The notes below the pieces were generated by a model. That model ran no database searches. It was not told where the DNA came from and saw only the letters and a list, made by a program, of their open reading frames with translations. Shown here piece by piece: positions 32,597-41,749 of a DNA stretch of 50,865 bases. Both the position numbers and the translations under genes were made by a program. The stretch spans positions 1 to 50,865 of the forward strand of contig VHBK01000006.1 of assembly GCA_016872015.1 (NCBI GenBank), read 5' to 3'. How positions within the stretch are numbered: the stretch's first letter is position 1; each line of letters begins with the position of its first letter. The DNA is from Nitrososphaerota archaeon. Its GTDB lineage: Archaea > Thermoproteota > Nitrososphaeria > Nitrososphaerales > Nitrosopumilaceae.

Positions 32597-34612
32597 ATGG
32601 CAGTAAACCCATTTACCGTATTTGTATTTGATATTTTCATTATCTCGGCTATTTTGCTGACTGCATATACCTTTAATTTCTATTATCTTGCGATTTTGGC
32701 GATCCGAAGAAAGGACAAATACCCAGTAAAGAAAATCGGTACGCCGTCAATTACAATACAACTTCCACTATACAACGAAAAATATGTTGCGGCAAGACTG
32801 GTTGATGCAGTCTGCGCAATGGACTATCCAAAGGACAAAATGAAGATAATGGTCCTTGATGATTCTGACGATGACACTACGAATCTTTTGCATGATCATG
32901 TAAACAACTACAAAAAAGACGGATACGACATTACTCACATTAGACGTGGAACAAGAAAGGGGTACAAGGCGGGGGCACTCAAATATGCAATGACACTTAC
33001 TGACACGGAATATGTTGCAATTTTTGATGCGGACTTTATCCCGCCGAAATGGTTTCTCAAAAAGGCAATGCCATACTTTGCCAAATCTAACATTGGACTA
33101 GTCCAGTGTAGATGGGGACACGTCAATGAGAACTACTCTGCAATGACTCAAGCACAAGCGCTAAGCCTTGACTTTCATTTTTTGGTGGAGCAAAAGGCAA
33201 AAAGCAATTCTTCAATGTATATGAATTTCAATGGAACTGCGGGAATTTGGAAGCGAGACTGCATCGAAGATGCTGGCGGATGGCACACTGCCACATTGGT
33301 TGAGGACCTTGATCTGAGCTATAGGGCACAGATGAAGGGATGGAAGTGCGTTTTCATTGAGGATATAGTAGTTGATGCGGAACTGCCAGTCCAGATGAAT
33401 GCCGCAAAAAGACAGCAATTTCGATGGGCAAAGGGTGCAATCCAGTGTGCAGTAAAATTGCTTGGCGACATTGTCATAAAGCGACACATTCCAATAGAGG
33501 CAAAAATTCAGGCATTTGTTCAGCTTACTCGCCACATTGGCTATCCATTGTTATTAATACAATTTTTGGCACTGCCGATTCTTTTGGCCGCAAACTTTAA
33601 CCTTCATGTACTCAAGTTTGTCCCGGCGTTAACCATATCTGCATATCTTGCAATGGGGCCGTTTGCATATTTGGTTGTGATTTACAATTTGTGGGGTCAA
33701 AACTGGAAGCAAAAGGCAAAGGTCATGCCATTTTTGCTGATTTACTCTGCAGGCCTTGCTGTGAACAACACTGTTGCAGTCTTTGATGGGCTGTTTGGCA
33801 AAAAGAACGAGTTTTTGCGCACACCAAAATATGGAATCACAAAGAACACTGATGACTGGCGTGACAAGGCATACAATTTACCTTTTACCAAGACCACACT
33901 ATTGGAGATATTCTTTGCAGTATATGGTATAATGGGAATCCTAATTGCAATATTTTCCAAGAATCCGGTTTTTGCGCCAATAATAGCAATACCTACAATT
34001 GGCTTTGCGTATGTTGCGTACCAGAGCCTCTCTCATTCTAGGTTTAAAAGAAATAAATCAGAGAGGCCAAAATCAAAAACAGAAAAAATGGCTGACAACT
34101 ACTACCAGATGGCACTAGTCGGCATGTTTGCAATAATTACATTTGGCGCATACATGGCATACCAGGGATACCAAAGCGACGTATATCCACTGGACCTGTC
34201 ACGCGGCTATTTGGATAGAATTGCAACGGGAGGAGATCCACAACTGATGCTTCAAGACCTCAACGCAATAAAGGCACAGCTTCCAAAAGAAGGCAATCCT
34301 GTATGGATCTTCCCAACAGACACTACTGACTTTGGACGAATCCAGGAAGACGTTGATTCCCTAATAGAGTCTGTAGAGGCAATACAAAACCAGCCAAAGA
34401 GCTCAGTTGAATACAGCACCGCCATGTCTGATCTGCATCTTAGAGCAATTCAGATACGACAAAACATAATGGATGCAACTCCATACATGTATGCTAGTTT
34501 TTCAAACATTGTGTTTAGCTCAATTTGGATTGCTGCAATTCTTGGAATATTTGCAGTGCTCAAAAGAAAGAAGGACCAACTCAAAGCCTACGACAAATCA
34601 GAAGACGTCTAG
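32597..34612 (+). CDS. Membrane-bound family 2 glycosyltransferase (cellulose/mannan synthase-like)
   Basis: 671 residues. A first transmembrane helix (about 10-33) is followed by a GT-A domain with the processive GT2 motifs: DD 88-89, DAD 144-146, ED 236-237 and QQFRW 273-277. Four or so membrane helices follow (about 310-400 and 428-475), then a soluble segment and a last helix near 640-662. It would polymerise or transfer a sugar from an NDP donor to the cell surface. The donor is unknown. An extracytoplasmic insert of about 110 residues (about 530-640) before the last helix is not a standard part of the family. Confidence 0.87.
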
Positions 34613-35955
34613 GCTTGTACTAGAGGAGCATCTTTTTGCTCATCAGAGCTTAGCTTGAATTTGGAAATCACATTTTGAAGTTGTTCTGCCAAAGTAGACA
34701 TTTGATTTGCTGCAGATGCAATCTCTTGTGTGTGCGCTGTTTGTTGTTCTACGGCAGCCGATGTTTCTTCGGTGGCAGATGCGTTTTGTTCTGCTACTGA
34801 CGAAATTTCTATTGCGTGCGCAGACACTTCGTTTACTTTGATCACCTCTTGCTGTACTGTGTTTGAGAGATGCTTGATCTTGTCTGAGACATTTCTGACG
34901 TGGGACGCTATTTCGTCAAGTGACTTTAGCGAAGATTCGATTACCAATTTGCCTTGGTTTACCTCATTAGAAGACACCTCGATATCTTCGACTACCATTT
35001 GTGCGTCTTCGTGGATTTGTTTTAGTTTTGAATCGATTTCTTCAGATGATCTGGATGAGCTTTCTGCTAGGCGTCTTACCTCGTCAGCTACTACTGCAAA
35101 TCCTCTGCCTGATTCTCCAGCACGGGCTGCCTCTATTGCGGCATTTAACGCCAAAAGATTTGTCTGGTCTGCAATGTCTCTTATTACTGTTAAAACTGCG
35201 GTGATCTCACTTGTTTTTTGAGCTAACTCTCGCACCTTTACTGCAGAACTGTTTGTGACTCGAATAATGTTGTTCATTCTCTCACCTGCTTCCTTTGCCG
35301 CCTCTGAGCCTTTCTCTGATAGCGTACCTACGCGATTTGCTTCCTCAACTGACTCTATTGCGTCTTTTGATAATTCGTTAATTGTCTTTGACAGCTCATC
35401 TACTATTTGTTTTGACTTGTTGAGTCCCTGTGCTTGAGATTCTGAGCCTTTTGCCACTTGATCAACTGTTGCTGCAATTTGTTGTATTGATGAGTTCATC
35501 TCTGTTCCAGACGCTGCAATTTGCTGTGCGCTTGCAAAAACCGACTGTGATGAATTGTTTACTTCGGATATTATGTTTCTCAGATTTGACACCATTTGTT
35601 TTTCTGCGTAAAGCAGCTTACCTATCTCGTCTTTGGATTTTGACTCTTGTACTGTGACAGACAGATCGCCTTGGCTTATTTGTGTTGCAATCTCTGTTGC
35701 CTTGACGATTGGCTTTGTTATTTTGCGTGACATAAAATATGCAAAAACACCTACTACTGCGTTTACTGTTATTCCTAAAATTAGTACCTGAGTGGACATC
35801 TCTGATAGGTGACTCTTCAGGCTCTCATCACCAGAATTTTCTACAAGCTGGCTTGTGATATTGAAACTGCCTAGCGATATTACCAGTACGGAAACTATGG
35901 CAATCGCATTGAACAATAACTGCAATTTCCAATTAAGCGAGATACGATTCCACAT
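34609..35955 (-). CDS. Methyl-accepting chemotaxis protein with minimal sensor loop
   Basis: 448 residues. TM1 (about 13-31), a loop of only about 20 residues outside, TM2 (about 52-73), HAMP ([25 protein letters not shown]), then a long helical signalling domain with the conserved hairpin tip [41 protein letters not shown]. It ends in APLVQA. It would signal through CheA/CheW to the archaellum. With so short a loop it cannot hold a Cache or four-helix ligand domain, so it may sense membrane state, energy state or a cytosolic signal. It overlaps the glycosyltransferase end by 4 nt (convergent). Confidence 0.92.
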
Positions 35956-36332: not shown

Positions 36333-37688
36333 GTGTCAGCAAAGAAAACCCCTAAAACTGCAGAAAAATCAATGACAAAAAGAGATACGGCCAATCTGGC
36401 AAAAAAAGTGGCGGCAGTATCTGATTCTACCAAATCATTATCTAAAGAAATTAAATCGATGGCAAAGGTATTTTCTGATAATCAAAAGGTGCTCTTGTCC
36501 ATGAAGGGAATGATTGATACCCTCATTGATACCTTGGAGCAGATACAAAAGCAATCAAAGCAGCTAAACATCATGGAAGAGGACAATCAAAGACTCTATG
36601 CAGGACTAAATCAGGTTCGTGCACAGGCAAACATGATTACAAGTGTTGGCGAGCATGCAAACAAACTGCAAGAACAGGTAAACAAGCTAGTCCAGACCCA
36701 AAAGGATGCGCCAGCACCAGATGAAATAATGAAGGCAGTATCCGAAAGCCAAAACTCGATTCAAAACAACACTCACATGATAATCAAGATTGCACAAAGA
36801 ATAGACACAATCAAAGACGATCTTGCTGGCATATCATCCAAGGCAGAAAAAACATCCAACATTGAATCGGAATTAGACACAATCAAGGAAAAACTAGAAG
36901 CATTGTCTGAAAATTCATCAAAATTAAGCCTAGAATCTCAAATTCCTCATATACAATCAAGCCTAGAAGCACTACAAAACGAGCTTGCAACAAACATGGC
37001 AAAGACTGATTCTATTACTCATCTTAGGGGAGAGATTGCCAAAATTGAATCTGAGGTTAGCTCGCTAGTCAAGAGGGCAGACTCGACTGCGTTTGTTGGC
37101 GAGGGACTCAAATCAGTTCAATCTGATCTTTCATCATTTAAGGATCACATCTTTGGCAAGACAAACACCATTGACCAAAAGATTTCATCAATATCTGAAT
37201 TACTAAAGAGAGCAGACGCTGCATCGTCTGAATTCCACAAAAAGGCGGACCATCTTGTACAAGAAGTGCAGCACATCAAGAGTGCCACAAACAAGTCTTC
37301 ATCCACTGCATCAAAAGAGGTAATTGCATTACTGAAATTATCCGAATTCCAGTCAAACATTAGAATTCTATCAGAGTCAAAATATGGTGAGCTAAAAGAC
37401 ATTGAGAAAATGGCAGAGCAGACATCAGATATTGTCAATCTATTTGACAAAGTGGCAATTGAATCCCAGGAAAAAGTCTCGCTACCGCAAGAGATCCGCC
37501 AGTGGGCAATATCTAAAATGCTTGACTGTGCAGACAAATGGGAGATCAGATTCTCTGATCTGTATAGTGTTCTGATAAACAAGCTTGGCAAAGAGCTAGT
37601 CAAAGAAAACATTCGCATAAACCAAGTGCGCGACATTTTTGGAATCCGTGGTGTGGATGAAATACGAAAAGAGCTTAGCTTGAACTGA
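36333..37688 (+). CDS. Long coiled-coil protein, unknown function
   Basis: 451 residues from GTG 36333. After a basic Lys/Thr-rich head (1-25) nearly the whole chain to about residue 345 is predicted coiled coil, with repeating hydrophobic heptads and few Pro. The last 100 residues (EIRQWAISKMLDCADKWEIRFSDLY ... RINQVRDIFGIRGVDEIRKELSLN) form a compact helical domain, perhaps winged-helix-like. No signal peptide or membrane helix, no ATPase motif. It precedes the winged-helix and ATPase genes on the same strand (185-nt gap), so a joint function is possible. Confidence 0.7.
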   Translation: MSAKKTPKTAEKSMTKRDTANLAKKVAAVSDSTKSLSKEIKSMAKVFSDNQKVLLSMKGMIDTLIDTLEQIQKQSKQLNIMEEDNQRLYAGLNQVRAQANMITSVGEHANKLQEQVNKLVQTQKDAPAPDEIMKAVSESQNSIQNNTHMIIKIAQRIDTIKDDLAGISSKAEKTSNIESELDTIKEKLEALSENSSKLSLESQIPHIQSSLEALQNELATNMAKTDSITHLRGEIAKIESEVSSLVKRADSTAFVGEGLKSVQSDLSSFKDHIFGKTNTIDQKISSISELLKRADAASSEFHKKADHLVQEVQHIKSATNKSSSTASKEVIALLKLSEFQSNIRILSESKYGELKDIEKMAEQTSDIVNLFDKVAIESQEKVSLPQEIRQWAISKMLDCADKWEIRFSDLYSVLINKLGKELVKENIRINQVRDIFGIRGVDEIRKELSLN

Positions 37689-37873
37689 TTTAGAGCAGTC
37701 AGATACCCCAGGTCTCATTCTACATAAAATTCAGATGACCTAATCATCACTCTGCAAGGCAGACTTTGGCACTATTCCTAATAATTCTTGATGCGTCCTA
37801 GGTAATTATTATTCACAAAATAGTAATACAAGTCGACCTTTCCCATTAAAAAAAATTTTAGGGATTTTAGCAC

Positions 37874-38398
37874 ATGAATTCCCAGATTCTTGAGAAAGTT
37901 GAATCATCAGGAGTCTGCGGAATAAAAAAGGCAGAACTAAAGAAGATTTTTGGCGCAGACTGTGAAAATACAATAAACGAGCTTGCAAAAGAGGATAAAG
38001 TAATAGTGGACAACAAGGGCGTTGCGCACTATGTGTGGAGCAAGGACAATTACCTGTCTCATGTGTCACAAAACGACCCCAAGTTCAAGATTCTAGCAAA
38101 GCTGGTCCACAATTTAGAGGCAAAAATCTCGCAAATCCCAGCAAAATCAGAAAATACTGTCGACTTTAAGATTCATTTTGATAACTGCGTATCAGAAATT
38201 TCGTCATCTTTGGGATGGGTTCCACTGGCAGATGTGCGAGTCAAAGTTTGCACAATCCTCGATATCACGCAAGAAAAATTCTACTCCGAGGTGTATGCAA
38301 TAGTAGAGCAAAACCCGACAAAATATGAAATATCAACAGGTGGAGTGGAGGGAATCCATGTGCGCGGAATGTTACATGGATACATACGACGACTATGA
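37874..38398 (+). CDS. Tandem winged-helix-like protein, unknown function
   Basis: 174 residues from ATG 37874. The N-terminal part (1-55; ILEKVESSGVCGIKKAELKKIFG ... NELAKEDKVIVDNKGVAHYVW) has the helix-helix-strand-strand layout of a winged helix. A linker with coiled-coil character follows, then a second alpha/beta region (about 95-174; SSSLGWVPLADVRVKVCTIL ... VEGIHVRGMLHGYIRRL) that may also be winged-helix. It is linked to the ATPase gene by a 4-nt ATGA overlap, so both are probably made together. Confidence 0.65.
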   Translation: MNSQILEKVESSGVCGIKKAELKKIFGADCENTINELAKEDKVIVDNKGVAHYVWSKDNYLSHVSQNDPKFKILAKLVHNLEAKISQIPAKSENTVDFKIHFDNCVSEISSSLGWVPLADVRVKVCTILDITQEKFYSEVYAIVEQNPTKYEISTGGVEGIHVRGMLHGYIRRL

Positions 38399-39999
38399 CA
38401 TATCCATACGGCCTAAAATCAAATCCATATCCTAGTAGCCCAACACCAACTGAGCAAGATGCCAAGATTTTGGGTGGAACAAAACACCAGGAGGCAAAAA
38501 ACTCGATAGTCGAATGCATCTCTGATTTGTACAAGCAAACCTCTAGAAGAAACTCTGATGAGAATGACTTTAGACTAATCACAGTAGTGCAAGATGTTGG
38601 CTCTGGCAAGACACATCTGGCATTACACATCAAGACACTAAAGACAAGGCAAGACATTGTAACTGCATATGTAGACCTATCCACAATATCGCCCAAGACT
38701 AACGAGAGCATTTATTCTGCAATAATGCGAGGCTTTAGCCGTGAAATGTTCTCGGAGCTGCGAACAAAGTTCTTAATGCAGATATGCGAGCGAGCCCAAA
38801 AGGGAGATGCCCTGGCAAAAAAGGTACTTGGCTATGGCTTTTTGGACAGACTAAAGGGAATCACCATAAAGCAAAAGGCAGAAGATATCATCTATGACAA
38901 AAATATTATGTCACAAGAGACTCTGCGTAGCTATCTCGGTGCTCACTATTCACAGCACGAATCAGCTGTAATACAGAATATAATTTCCAATTCATTTGAC
39001 AGGGTAACAAATCTGGACGATCTTCACGGCCGACTGGCTGTAACATGCAAGTTTTTCCATAATTTGTTGGGCAAAGTAACTCTCTTTGAGCTAGACGAGC
39101 TTGACGCACAAGAAGGCACACTAGAATTTGTAAAATCGCTCATAAATGCGCACATTCCGGCATCTGTTTTACTGTTGATTACCACACCCTCACTATATCT
39201 AGACATACAAAAAGTAAACCCTTCCGTCTTTGACAGGCTGGAAAAGGCAAACTACAAAATTGATCTTGCCGGTGCAAATTCAGTAGACGAGCTAATCGAG
39301 ATTGCAATTGAATACATCAAGGAAGCTGACAAGACAGAGCGATTCAACAAAAAAGAACAGCACGATTTGGCAGCAAAGATTCGAGTTTTATGTGATGAAT
39401 TCCCAGAATTCCGAAACGTCCGCTCTATCATAAACATACTAAACCATGCAATAGAGCAAGGATACGAATTAGACGCTTCTGAAATCACAGAGACAGTAAT
39501 TGATGAAACCATCAAGCACACATATCCAGGACTAAAAATCAAGGGAAGCATCATGGAAGTGCCAATATCTGAATTTATCAAAATAAAGAGAACTGCGGGA
39601 GCCACCCAGGACCAAGTAAAGCAGGCAATCGCAAACCTGGTCAACTATGCGCATGAAATAGGAAACGTCTCAAAATCGGCAATGCAAAACCCTTCCTTTG
39701 ATGTGGTGTATTCAGATCCATTTGGCACAAAAATAGGAATTGCCGTAGTCATGAACGACAATCACGCAAAGAACTTTGAGGTAATCTCTAATGTGGTAAA
39801 ATCATCGGCATTTGTGGACAAGCTAATCATCATAACAAACACAAGCATCCCGCAGTCAAACTTAGCCACAATAGTAAATGTGGACAAGTCCAAGGTAATT
39901 GACTTGCTATACTTTAACAATAAGTACACAGAGCGCAAGCTTGACGAGCCAGAGTCCGAAAAAGTCAAAATCCTGGCAAAAACAATCTCGGTAATCTAA
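38395..39999 (+). CDS. ExeA/Orc-like AAA+ ATPase with unknown C-terminal domain
   Basis: 534 residues. The N-terminus (YGLKSNPYPSSPTPTEQDAKILGGTKHQEAK) resembles the lead-in of ExeA/TniB-type AAA+ proteins (YGL..NPF......H.EA). Walker A QDVGSGKTH is at 66-74, Walker B-like FELDELD at 231-237, and a helical lid with winged-helix features at about 290-390. The last 140 residues (from about 395) form an alpha/beta domain with GTKIGIAVVMND and FVDKLIIITNTSIP, perhaps a degraded nuclease-like or partner-binding fold. It is coupled to the winged-helix gene. No homologue with known function was recognised. Confidence 0.7.
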   Translation: MTYPYGLKSNPYPSSPTPTEQDAKILGGTKHQEAKNSIVECISDLYKQTSRRNSDENDFRLITVVQDVGSGKTHLALHIKTLKTRQDIVTAYVDLSTISPKTNESIYSAIMRGFSREMFSELRTKFLMQICERAQKGDALAKKVLGYGFLDRLKGITIKQKAEDIIYDKNIMSQETLRSYLGAHYSQHESAVIQNIISNSFDRVTNLDDLHGRLAVTCKFFHNLLGKVTLFELDELDAQEGTLEFVKSLINAHIPASVLLLITTPSLYLDIQKVNPSVFDRLEKANYKIDLAGANSVDELIEIAIEYIKEADKTERFNKKEQHDLAAKIRVLCDEFPEFRNVRSIINILNHAIEQGYELDASEITETVIDETIKHTYPGLKIKGSIMEVPISEFIKIKRTAGATQDQVKQAIANLVNYAHEIGNVSKSAMQNPSFDVVYSDPFGTKIGIAVVMNDNHAKNFEVISNVVKSSAFVDKLIIITNTSIPQSNLATIVNVDKSKVIDLLYFNNKYTERKLDEPESEKVKILAKTISVI

Positions 40000-40038: not shown

Positions 40039-41322
40039 ATGCAAAATTATTTTCTGCAATCTGGCATCCAATCCATGATAGAACAGGTCACGCCAGACAT
40101 TCCACATTCTTCATTTGTGACGGATTTGGCAATAATCATGATTTTGGCATCGGTTGCAACTTTGGCGTTTTTCAAAATGCGACAACCATTGATAATTGGA
40201 TACTTGTTTGCAGGAATGCTAATAGGCCCGCTCTCTCCAATTTGGACCTCACTTCTGCCTGAGGGCCAAAATTTTATGGGATTTGGACAGGCGGGACTGT
40301 TGTCTGATCTTGGACTGCTCAATATTTTTGCAGAACTTGGTGTGATTTTGCTTTTGTTTGTAATTGGAATAGAGTTCCCGTATTCTAAAATTCGCTCAAT
40401 AGGTAAAGTTGCAATTGGTGCAGGAACAATTGGATTGTTTTTGACGTTGGGTGTAGTGTTTTATGTAGCAAACTTGGTGGGTCTGAATTTTATGGACTCG
40501 CTCTTTTTGGGCGCAGCACTATCTATTACCAGTACTGCAGTAATTGTCAAAATTCTAGAAGATGCTGGCAAAATAAAAAAGGAATCATCAATTCTGGTTT
40601 TGGGTGTTTTAATTGTTGAAGACATTATCGCAGTAATTTTGATTGCAACACTAGAATCGGTCGCACTGGTGGGAAGCGTATCGTACGAGAGCATCATAAC
40701 TGTAATTATAGTTGCAGGTGCACTGATTGGTGGAACACTGACCATTGGAACAAAATTAATTCCAAAACTAATTGATCGGGTGGCAGCTACTGAACATAAA
40801 GAGATTCTGTTGCTGTCTGTTCTTGGTTTGTGTTTTGGCTATTCATTATTTGCAAATATAGTTGGTCTGTCTGTCGCAATTGGCGCATTTCTGGCAGGAG
40901 TCCTCGTCGCAGAATCAAAATCTGCCGAAGTCTCCAAAATTTTATCCAGTCCGATTAAGGACATGTTTGTTGCGATATTTTTCGTCTCTGTCGGCGCACT
41001 CATGAATATTTCAGAACTGGAAAACTACATTTTCTTGGCATTTGGAATCATTGCCCTGGCAATTGGAGTAAAATTTGGAGGAGCAATGCTAGGAACATAC
41101 TTGTTCAGGCAAGGCAAGGCAAAATCACTGCGTTCTGCATTTGCTCTTGCAGGCCCGCGAGGGGAATTCTCTATTGTCATAGTAAAGACAGGCGTAGATA
41201 TTGGCGCAGTTAGCAGCTTTTTGTTCCCGCTGATAGGAATCATATCTATAATTTCGGCATTTATCTCACCATTTTTAATTAGGGCAAGCGACAAAATTGT
41301 TGCAAAGACTGCGGAGGAATAG
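40039..41322 (+). CDS. CPA2-family (Kef-type) cation:proton antiporter
   Basis: 427 residues, about 12 hydrophobic helices over the whole chain. Family motifs are IGYLFAGMLIGP (about 52-63), ELGVILLLFVIGIEF (about 98-112), the paired SITSTAVIVKIL / VEDIIAVI region with the ion-binding Asp, and AGPRGEFSIVIVK (about 372-384). It exchanges Na+ or K+ for H+. There is no C-terminal TrkA-N/RCK domain, so it is the short form without nucleotide gating. I use ATG 40039; a TTG directly before is possible. A small soluble gene follows with its own Shine-Dalgarno sequence. Confidence 0.9.
   Translation: MQNYFLQSGIQSMIEQVTPDIPHSSFVTDLAIIMILASVATLAFFKMRQPLIIGYLFAGMLIGPLSPIWTSLLPEGQNFMGFGQAGLLSDLGLLNIFAELGVILLLFVIGIEFPYSKIRSIGKVAIGAGTIGLFLTLGVVFYVANLVGLNFMDSLFLGAALSITSTAVIVKILEDAGKIKKESSILVLGVLIVEDIIAVILIATLESVALVGSVSYESIITVIIVAGALIGGTLTIGTKLIPKLIDRVAATEHKEILLLSVLGLCFGYSLFANIVGLSVAIGAFLAGVLVAESKSAEVSKILSSPIKDMFVAIFFVSVGALMNISELENYIFLAFGIIALAIGVKFGGAMLGTYLFRQGKAKSLRSAFALAGPRGEFSIVIVKTGVDIGAVSSFLFPLIGIISIISAFISPFLIRASDKIVAKTAEE
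41313..41317 (+). promoter_or_regulatory. Shine-Dalgarno sequence GGAGG of the 141-aa gene
   Basis: GGAGG ends 6 nt before ATG 41324 and lies in the last codons of the antiporter gene. It fixes the start at 41324, not at the upstream in-frame codon 41297. Clear Shine-Dalgarno sequences are rare in this window. Confidence 0.7.
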
Positions 41323-41323
41323 C

Positions 41324-41749
41324 ATGGATGATGAAATGAAAGAACTAATGGACAAAGTACACGTAGGCATTACTTCGTTTAACTATAATGGCACCAAAGT
41401 GCCGTGCGTGATTTTGGCAGAAAAAAGATTTGATGAAATAATGGCCAAAGTTGCCGGCAAGCCACTATCAGTTGATACAAACCTCAACATTTTGCAAAAC
41501 GGACTAGGCAATGTCTTTGTGGAGATGGCGCTTACCTTTTCAGAAGGCGGAATTGATGAGAAAATACTGCTATATGCAAACGAGTCACTCGACTTTTTTG
41601 AGTCTCTGTCAACTACCTCAATGCTCGCATTATCATCACCTCATTCCCAAGTAGGAAAAGACAACGTGTTTATGATCCAGCTTCCAAGGCCTGAAAAAAT
41701 AGCAAACGCACTGGATATAATCAAAAAGGGCTTACAAGCAAAAAGCTAG
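41324..41749 (+). CDS. Hypothetical soluble protein, 141 aa
   Basis: Starts at ATG 41324 (MDDEMKELMDKVHVG), one base after the antiporter stop, behind a GGAGG sequence. Mixed alpha/beta sequence (VPCVILAEKRFDEIMAKVAG, NVFVEMALTFSEGGIDEKILLYANE). No known motif. It is translated from the antiporter mRNA, so a regulatory role for it is conceivable; that is inference. Its end overlaps the convergent secreted protein gene by 4 nt. Confidence 0.62.
   Translation: MDDEMKELMDKVHVGITSFNYNGTKVPCVILAEKRFDEIMAKVAGKPLSVDTNLNILQNGLGNVFVEMALTFSEGGIDEKILLYANESLDFFESLSTTSMLALSSPHSQVGKDNVFMIQLPRPEKIANALDIIKKGLQAKS

Follow-up and report, generated by a model that had tools for sequence, protein, structure and literature searches.

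A winged-helix and ORC-type ATPase gene pair in ammonia-oxidizing archaea

We analysed a 50,865-nucleotide stretch of DNA from a Nitrososphaerota archaeon of the family Nitrosopumilaceae (assembly GCA_016872015.1, contig VHBK01000006.1, positions 1–50,865; hereafter the window), whose genus we infer from the sequence to be Candidatus Nitrosotenuis. A first-pass annotation had proposed that three consecutive genes of the window, encoding a coiled-coil protein (hereafter CC), a tandem winged-helix protein (WH) and an AAA+ ATPase (hereafter the ATPase), make up an undescribed system. Our results reveal that this holds for WH and the ATPase, which form a unit that is apparently undescribed, but not for CC, which separates freely from them in other genomes. 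The pair is an old, vertically inherited core feature of the soil and hot-spring lineages of ammonia-oxidizing archaea (AOA). We give a probability of roughly 45% to the reading that it is a DNA-bound, ORC-type ATPase unit with winged helices supplied in trans and a dead nuclease fold, acting in chromosome maintenance. The open-licence literature searched holds no description of an AOA pair combining ORC-type ATPase, Mrr-type domain and winged helix-turn-helix (wHTH) protein, and one elsewhere is possible.

The winged-helix and ATPase genes

The pair, its domains and its neighbours are located in the window as follows.

37874–38398, + strand: WH, tandem winged-helix partner of 174 amino acids (aa); core member of the pair (open reading frame (ORF), AlphaFold2 model, coupling)
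37874–38041, + strand: N-terminal winged helix of WH, residues 1–56 (AlphaFold2 model)
38156–38398, + strand: C-terminal winged helix of WH, residues about 95–174; conserved in all partners, proposed ATPase-docking module
38395–39999, + strand: ATPase, ORC/Cdc6–BrxC-like AAA+ protein of 534 aa; core member of the pair (ORF, motifs, AlphaFold2 model, Foldseek)
38395–39564, + strand: AAA+ module of the ATPase, residues 1–390 (motifs and AlphaFold2 model)
39565–39996, + strand: C-terminal domain of the ATPase, residues 391–534; most likely a PD-(D/E)XK (Mrr-like) fold, with D436 retained and the (D/E)xK half gone
36333–37688, + strand: CC, coiled-coil protein of 451 aa (ORF); its C-terminal ~120 aa are a conserved domain
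32597–34612, + strand: membrane glycosyltransferase family 2 (GT2); conserved gene upstream of the pair, at 52 loci in Nitrosopumilaceae and Nitrososphaeraceae
41297–41749, + strand: 150-aa protein without a Pfam match; best-conserved gene downstream of the pair, at 65 loci in two AOA families

The three plus-strand ORFs of 451, 174 and 534 aa stand as they were first called, as does the ATGA junction of the last two. The nearest sister genomes (G013 and G015) contain orthologues of CC, WH and the ATPase with 87–96% identity and similar lengths, so all three are real genes. WH and the ATPase overlap by 4 bases (38395–38398), while 185 non-coding bases lie between CC and WH; translational coupling is thus limited to WH and the ATPase.

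Gene order was compared in 18 relatives and then in more than 80 loci. Its conservation, which the first-pass annotation had put forward as a check, holds for the pair: WH lies directly upstream of the ATPase, on the same strand and with a gap of −16 to +4 bases, in 73 AOA loci, most of which show an overlap of the two genes. A diverged WH–ATPase pair is likewise adjacent in a relative outside the AOA with 26% identity (L066), and coupled pairs of a partner and an ATPase also occur in family f22 (loci L067–L069 and L156–L159). In both Nitrosopumilaceae and Nitrososphaeraceae the pair is placed between the GT2 gene and the gene of the 150-aa protein. The latter persists where the pair has been lost and is therefore treated as syntenic backbone; the GT2 gene is treated in the same way. 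The neighbours of the pair differ in Nitrosocaldus.

The ATPase was modelled with AlphaFold2 from 55 sequences (mean predicted local distance difference test (pLDDT) score 86; predicted template modelling score (pTM) 0.71). The model consists of an AAA+ fold with a helical insertion (residues 103–225), a helical lid (297–376) and a second, alpha–beta domain from about residue 405; the Walker A loop (69–77) is of low confidence. The sequence carries an ExeA-like N-terminal motif, Walker A (GSGKT, 69–73), Walker B (DE, 234–235), sensor 1 (T264), an arginine finger (R281) and sensor 2 (R343). G69, G71, K72, T73, D234, E235, T264, R281 and R343 are invariant in all 55 AOA ATPases, and a wider set of 11 rows shares the K-T of Walker A, the D-E of Walker B, R281 and R343 throughout. 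Because these catalytic AAA+ residues are invariant in 55/55, the protein is predicted to be an active, oligomerising ATPase. In distant AOA rows the AAA+ core is 51–57% conserved, against 22–27% for the helical insertion. One Nitrososphaeraceae genome contains a second, more diverged copy (G507:C24:263003–264676).

Comparisons of sequence and fold bear out the earlier description of the ATPase as ExeA/Orc-like and not SMC-like. Pfam AAA_22 matches the window ATPase weakly (2.2e-4, below the cut-off) and a distant relative above the cut-off (34.6 bits), and the best Foldseek matches are Drosophila ORC (1.4e-4), BrxC (3e-4) and archaeal Cdc6/Orc1 (4.3e-4), followed by TnsC, RuvB and MuB. We read this likeness at the level of the clade, for the AAA+ part, and not as family membership, because the whole-chain template modelling (TM) scores by query are low (0.33–0.35). 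In NCBIfam, including its orc1/cdc6 family models, the window ATPase has no match at E ≤ 1, and its AlphaFold2 model shows no winged helix in the same chain after the AAA+ lid. Sequence searches of solved structures gave nothing useful for the ATPase or WH, and Foldseek against viral models gave nothing below 1e-3. As the first-pass annotation had held, the pair matches no named system, be it a protein family or a defence system: Pfam, NCBIfam and PADLOC give no convincing score.

The tandem winged helix first read in the 174-aa protein is reproduced by its AlphaFold2 model (mean pLDDT 83; pTM 0.45), which contains two wHTH-like units (residues 1–56 and about 95–164) joined by helices, their relative position being uncertain. 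Most of its Foldseek matches are DNA-binding and assembly proteins with wHTH folds, transcription regulators among them; none is below E 0.001. The C-terminal unit is the conserved part across 47 AOA WH proteins and bears the motif YELSTGGxEGIxxRGLLHGFVR, and the linker between the units varies from a few to about 230 residues. The partner at L067 shares the C-terminal unit with WH, but its N-terminal segment is unrelated and looks SAP-like by eye. Over the C-terminal winged helix, the window WH (0.0016) and L066:857–1489 (5.9e-4) weakly match the viral family phrog_38850.

The C-terminal domain of the ATPase

As relatives and the model suggest, the domain that the first-pass annotation had left as unknown most likely has a restriction-endonuclease fold of Mrr type, in the PD-(D/E)XK class, that has degenerated. 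In the AlphaFold2 model its elements are helix 405–421, a short first strand (426–427), strands 437–440 and 446–452, helix 457–473, strands 476–481 and 492–495 and helix 498–512, an order that fits the PD-(D/E)XK core (alpha–beta–beta–beta–alpha–beta). A profile built over the full length of the AOA ATPases matches the 611–624-aa ATPases of f22, a different family of the phylum outside the AOA, with E 1.5e-17 over 506 columns, the C-terminal domain included. The C-terminal fragment of one of the latter, L069, matches Pfam Mrr_cat (PF04471; 3.9e-5, 24.2 bits against a cut-off of 21), L068 and L040 show weaker matches over the same region, and ATPase frames of G112 and G068 exceed the PF04471 cut-off in a genome scan.

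The catalytic positions differ among the relatives: L066 and L067 have D followed by LDVK, and L040 has NVK. In the AOA ATPases, D436 and D441 are present in 55/55, while the (D/E)xK positions are hydrophobic or small in 55/55 and never hold the catalytic lysine. If the Mrr-type assignment is right, the nuclease is predicted from these residues to be disabled in the AOA; distant relatives that retain D...DxK may still be nucleases. A quite different reading is that the C-terminal domain cuts DNA by other residues, the pair being a restriction or repair enzyme. The invariance of both D436 and D441 would be unusual if the site were fully dead, but the replacement of the (D/E)xK half in every AOA sequence makes this very unlikely.

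The 611–624-aa ATPases of family f22, with an Mrr_cat C-terminus, constitute a second type of ATPase in that family (L157:6834–9132, L158:7761–10077, L159:7854–10155 and L156:7332–9291). It has its own winged-helix partner (164–169 aa), and G068 carries both ATPase types.

Distribution of the pair and separation of the coiled-coil gene

Presence was counted in genomes at least 90% complete for Nitrososphaeraceae, the genus of the window and g9 (Nitrosotalea), and in six Nitrosocaldaceae genomes, all more than 90% complete. The ATPase is present in 39/39 Nitrososphaeraceae, in 6/6 Nitrosocaldaceae and, in the genus of the window, in 10 of 12 genomes; of the two genomes without it, G006 has a contig end at this place and was not accepted as a loss. 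It also occurs in 17 of the 19 CC-bearing genomes of g9. A maximum-likelihood tree sorts the ATPases into the main lineages and places the Nitrosopumilus copies as sister to those of Nitrosotenuis; some deep forks are below the support threshold. Searches of viral contigs, phages and plasmids detected no relatives at the sensitivity used, and a mobile or viral origin was rejected on this basis. A match of a WH relative to Acidianus two-tailed virus 2 (E 2) was judged to be noise after its context had been viewed. The pattern looks like vertical descent with losses, not mobility. The first-pass annotation had proposed that a core distribution would mean cell biology and a patchy one defence; the pair falls on the core side in most AOA lineages, with lineage-specific loss in the marine ones.

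Among Nitrosopumilus metagenome-assembled genomes, loci L076, L077, L078, L080, L085 and L098 hold the ATPase without a detectable adjacent WH, and Walker A reads GCGKT, not GSGKT, in L077, L078 and L080.

CC behaves differently. Its C-terminal domain is present in 128 of the 136 Nitrosopumilaceae genomes, and the ATPase in 35 of them. All 35 also have CC, but CC occurs without the ATPase in 93 family genomes, and the two are not significantly associated (Fisher p 0.11). Among the 34 loci that hold both CC and the pair, 26 have CC on the opposite strand; the pair is missing, with CC and the flanks retained, in G014, G018 and G019; and CC was not found in G025, G026 and G031, the sampled order-level relatives that have the pair. 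The free separation that the first-pass annotation had named as a refutation was thus found in gene content, strand and synteny, and we regard CC as a core protein of Nitrosopumilaceae in its own right, outside the pair. It contains no ATPase domain, and its SMC and Rad50 matches, far below the cut-off, were judged together with a SpiroCoCo match to be coiled-coil background. A complex of the SMC–kleisin or MukBEF type, which would call for an SMC ATPase with hinge and ABC signature, was rejected, the ATPase being AAA+ and CC lacking an ATPase domain.

These data bear directly on a three-gene machine in which CC, WH and the ATPase would work in one chromosome-handling or defence complex. Such a machine would fit the adjacency of CC and the pair in many Nitrosopumilaceae, the presence of CC in every ATPase-bearing genome of the family and an insert in the WH proteins of Nitrosocaldus type (402–419 aa; L141:4727–5983, L142:4754–5971 and L145:4775–5980), in which ~230 coiled-coil-like residues lie between the winged helices. 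However, the insert is not convincingly CC-like (E 1.0; 4/500 heptad-block shuffles score as high), and we rejected it as a fused CC. Given also the 93 genomes with CC alone, the strand and synteny differences and the CC-less relatives, we regard the three-gene machine as highly improbable.

The glycosyltransferase gene adjoins CC in many family genomes. In the window a chemoreceptor gene (34609–35955) lies between GT2 and CC, and it is missing there, with the flanks retained, in G014 (L030) and G015 (L026). An unrelated ORF of 395–413 aa separates CC from WH at L041:7855–9096 (G001) and L027:8598–9785 (G012).

Related systems and the possible role of the pair

We then compared the pair with the closest known systems. 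Archaeal Orc1/Cdc6 and eukaryotic ORC give the best fold matches (7jgr, 2qby and 2v1u) and share Walker A and B, sensor 1, the arginine finger, sensor 2, the helical lid and the involvement of winged helices. By contrast, the window ATPase lacks a winged helix in cis after the lid, its winged helices being in a separate protein; it has a ~120-aa helical insertion before Walker B and a PD-(D/E)XK-like C-terminal domain; and it matches no orc1/cdc6 family model. BrxC and BrxD, of bacteriophage exclusion (BREX) and DUF499/DUF6079 systems, likewise combine an ORC/Cdc6-clade AAA+ module with wHTH (fold match 9zll, 3e-4), and the ATPase of the pair weakly matches Pfam PF10923 (0.014 in the window, 14.8 bits against a cut-off of 22.2; 7.6e-4 in the best member). 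However, BrxC is 1200–1300 aa long, with C-terminal domains different from that of the window ATPase (PMC12839542). No PglZ, BrxX/PglX, BrxB or helicase was noticed near the pair, where remote neighbours are not all annotated, and the pair is core and vertical, not patchy.

Three other groups share parts of this architecture. Members of arCOG03166 are fusions of an AAA+ ATPase with HTH and RecB nuclease domains and are located in variable islands (PMC4158269). They resemble the pair in their parts list (i.e. AAA+, HTH and a PD-(D/E)XK-type nuclease), a comparison of parts and not of sequence, while the pair has its HTH in trans, a degenerate nuclease and a fixed locus. Mrr-type restriction endonucleases (PF04471) most likely share the fold of the C-terminal domain, via the relatives L069, L068 and L040, but the AOA domain lacks DxK and is fused to an AAA+ ATPase. 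TnsC, MuB and TniB with TniQ have an AAA_22/ExeA-like N-terminal AAA+ module and a DNA-binding partner (fold matches 8fcv and 8xvb); unlike them, the pair lacks a transposase, shows no mobile-element context and stays at a fixed locus.

We propose that WH and the ATPase would be the two subunits of a single DNA-bound AAA+ machine belonging to the ORC/Cdc6 clade. Judging by its intact motifs, the ATPase would (i) bind and hydrolyse ATP and (ii) oligomerise via the arginine finger, while (iii) DNA would be recognised in trans by WH, whose variable N-terminal wHTH may read the DNA and whose conserved C-terminal wHTH, as conservation and coupling suggest, may dock on the ATPase. The Mrr-type fold of the AOA ATPase would no longer cut DNA and could serve as a structural or DNA-holding domain. 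The coupling, the modelled folds, the intact ATPase motifs, the missing DxK, the distribution, the synteny and the tree are observations, while complex formation, DNA binding and biological role are put forward from sequence and models. We consider chromosomal DNA maintenance (i.e. replication, segregation or damage handling) the likeliest role, given that the pair is inherited vertically, keeps a fixed locus and is universal in certain AOA families. A more tentative proposal is that a former restriction-type device was domesticated as a chromosome-maintenance complex of the AOA, its nuclease fold non-catalytic, and was later lost in marine lineages.

Several observations weigh against a maintenance unit of this kind. 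Most marine genomes lack the pair, and G014 shows a clean deletion of it; the pair is therefore not essential. In five g28 (Nitrosopumilus) genomes the ATPase occurs with no detectable WH, and in related records the ATPase is at another locus; WH is therefore not always needed. The f22 partners match the C-terminal unit of WH weakly (hhalign E 5e-5, probability 67%). The C-terminal fragment of the window ATPase alone finds nothing relevant in Pfam, and the PF04471 genome scan does not reach this domain, which makes its Mrr assignment indirect; no Foldseek match isolates the domain either. Finally, known defence systems are built from the same kinds of part, an ORC-type AAA+ module, wHTH and nuclease (PMC12839542).

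This last point leads to innate defence or genome surveillance, in which the pair would sense invading DNA, with WH recognising it and the ATPase acting as the switch, as in BREX-related and Mrr-containing systems. According to a 2026 survey (PMC12839542), anti-invader systems repeatedly contain ORC/Cdc6 AAA+ modules, fast-evolving wHTH and effector nucleases. BrxC ranks second among the fold matches, the BrxC_BrxD Pfam matches point weakly the same way, and WH and the helical insertion diverge faster than the AAA+ core. However, the patchy, mobile distribution expected of anti-phage systems is not what we find (39/39, 6/6, fixed synteny and a tree in line with the main lineages). The conserved neighbourhood holds no noticed methylase, helicase, PglZ or integrase, and the catalytic DxK is gone in the AOA. 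No PADLOC model matches the window ATPase; each of five families matches 1/55 members (best 7.7e-4), and BrxF matches 1/55 ATPases at 0.017. Defence thus appears unlikely, and a housekeeping DNA role is more likely. Equally doubtful is a transcription regulator in which a STAND/ORC-like ATPase would control WH binding at specific promoters. Weak nSTAND3 and NACHT matches in some ATPase members, the regulators among the WH fold matches and the operon structure would suit it, but the arginine finger and sensor 2, both invariant, suggest an oligomer of ORC type, and the sensor repeats of STAND regulators (TPR and WD) are lacking. The different neighbours in Nitrosocaldus also suggest that the pair has no fixed local target.

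Replication initiation and several defence systems depend on ORC-type ATPases. If the pair is indeed a chromosome-maintenance unit with a silenced nuclease fold, it would show in nature how a module of defence or restriction became part of the cell itself. It would also open chromosome biology to experiment in organisms with a central part in the nitrogen cycle, with the loss of the pair in marine relatives as a natural comparison.

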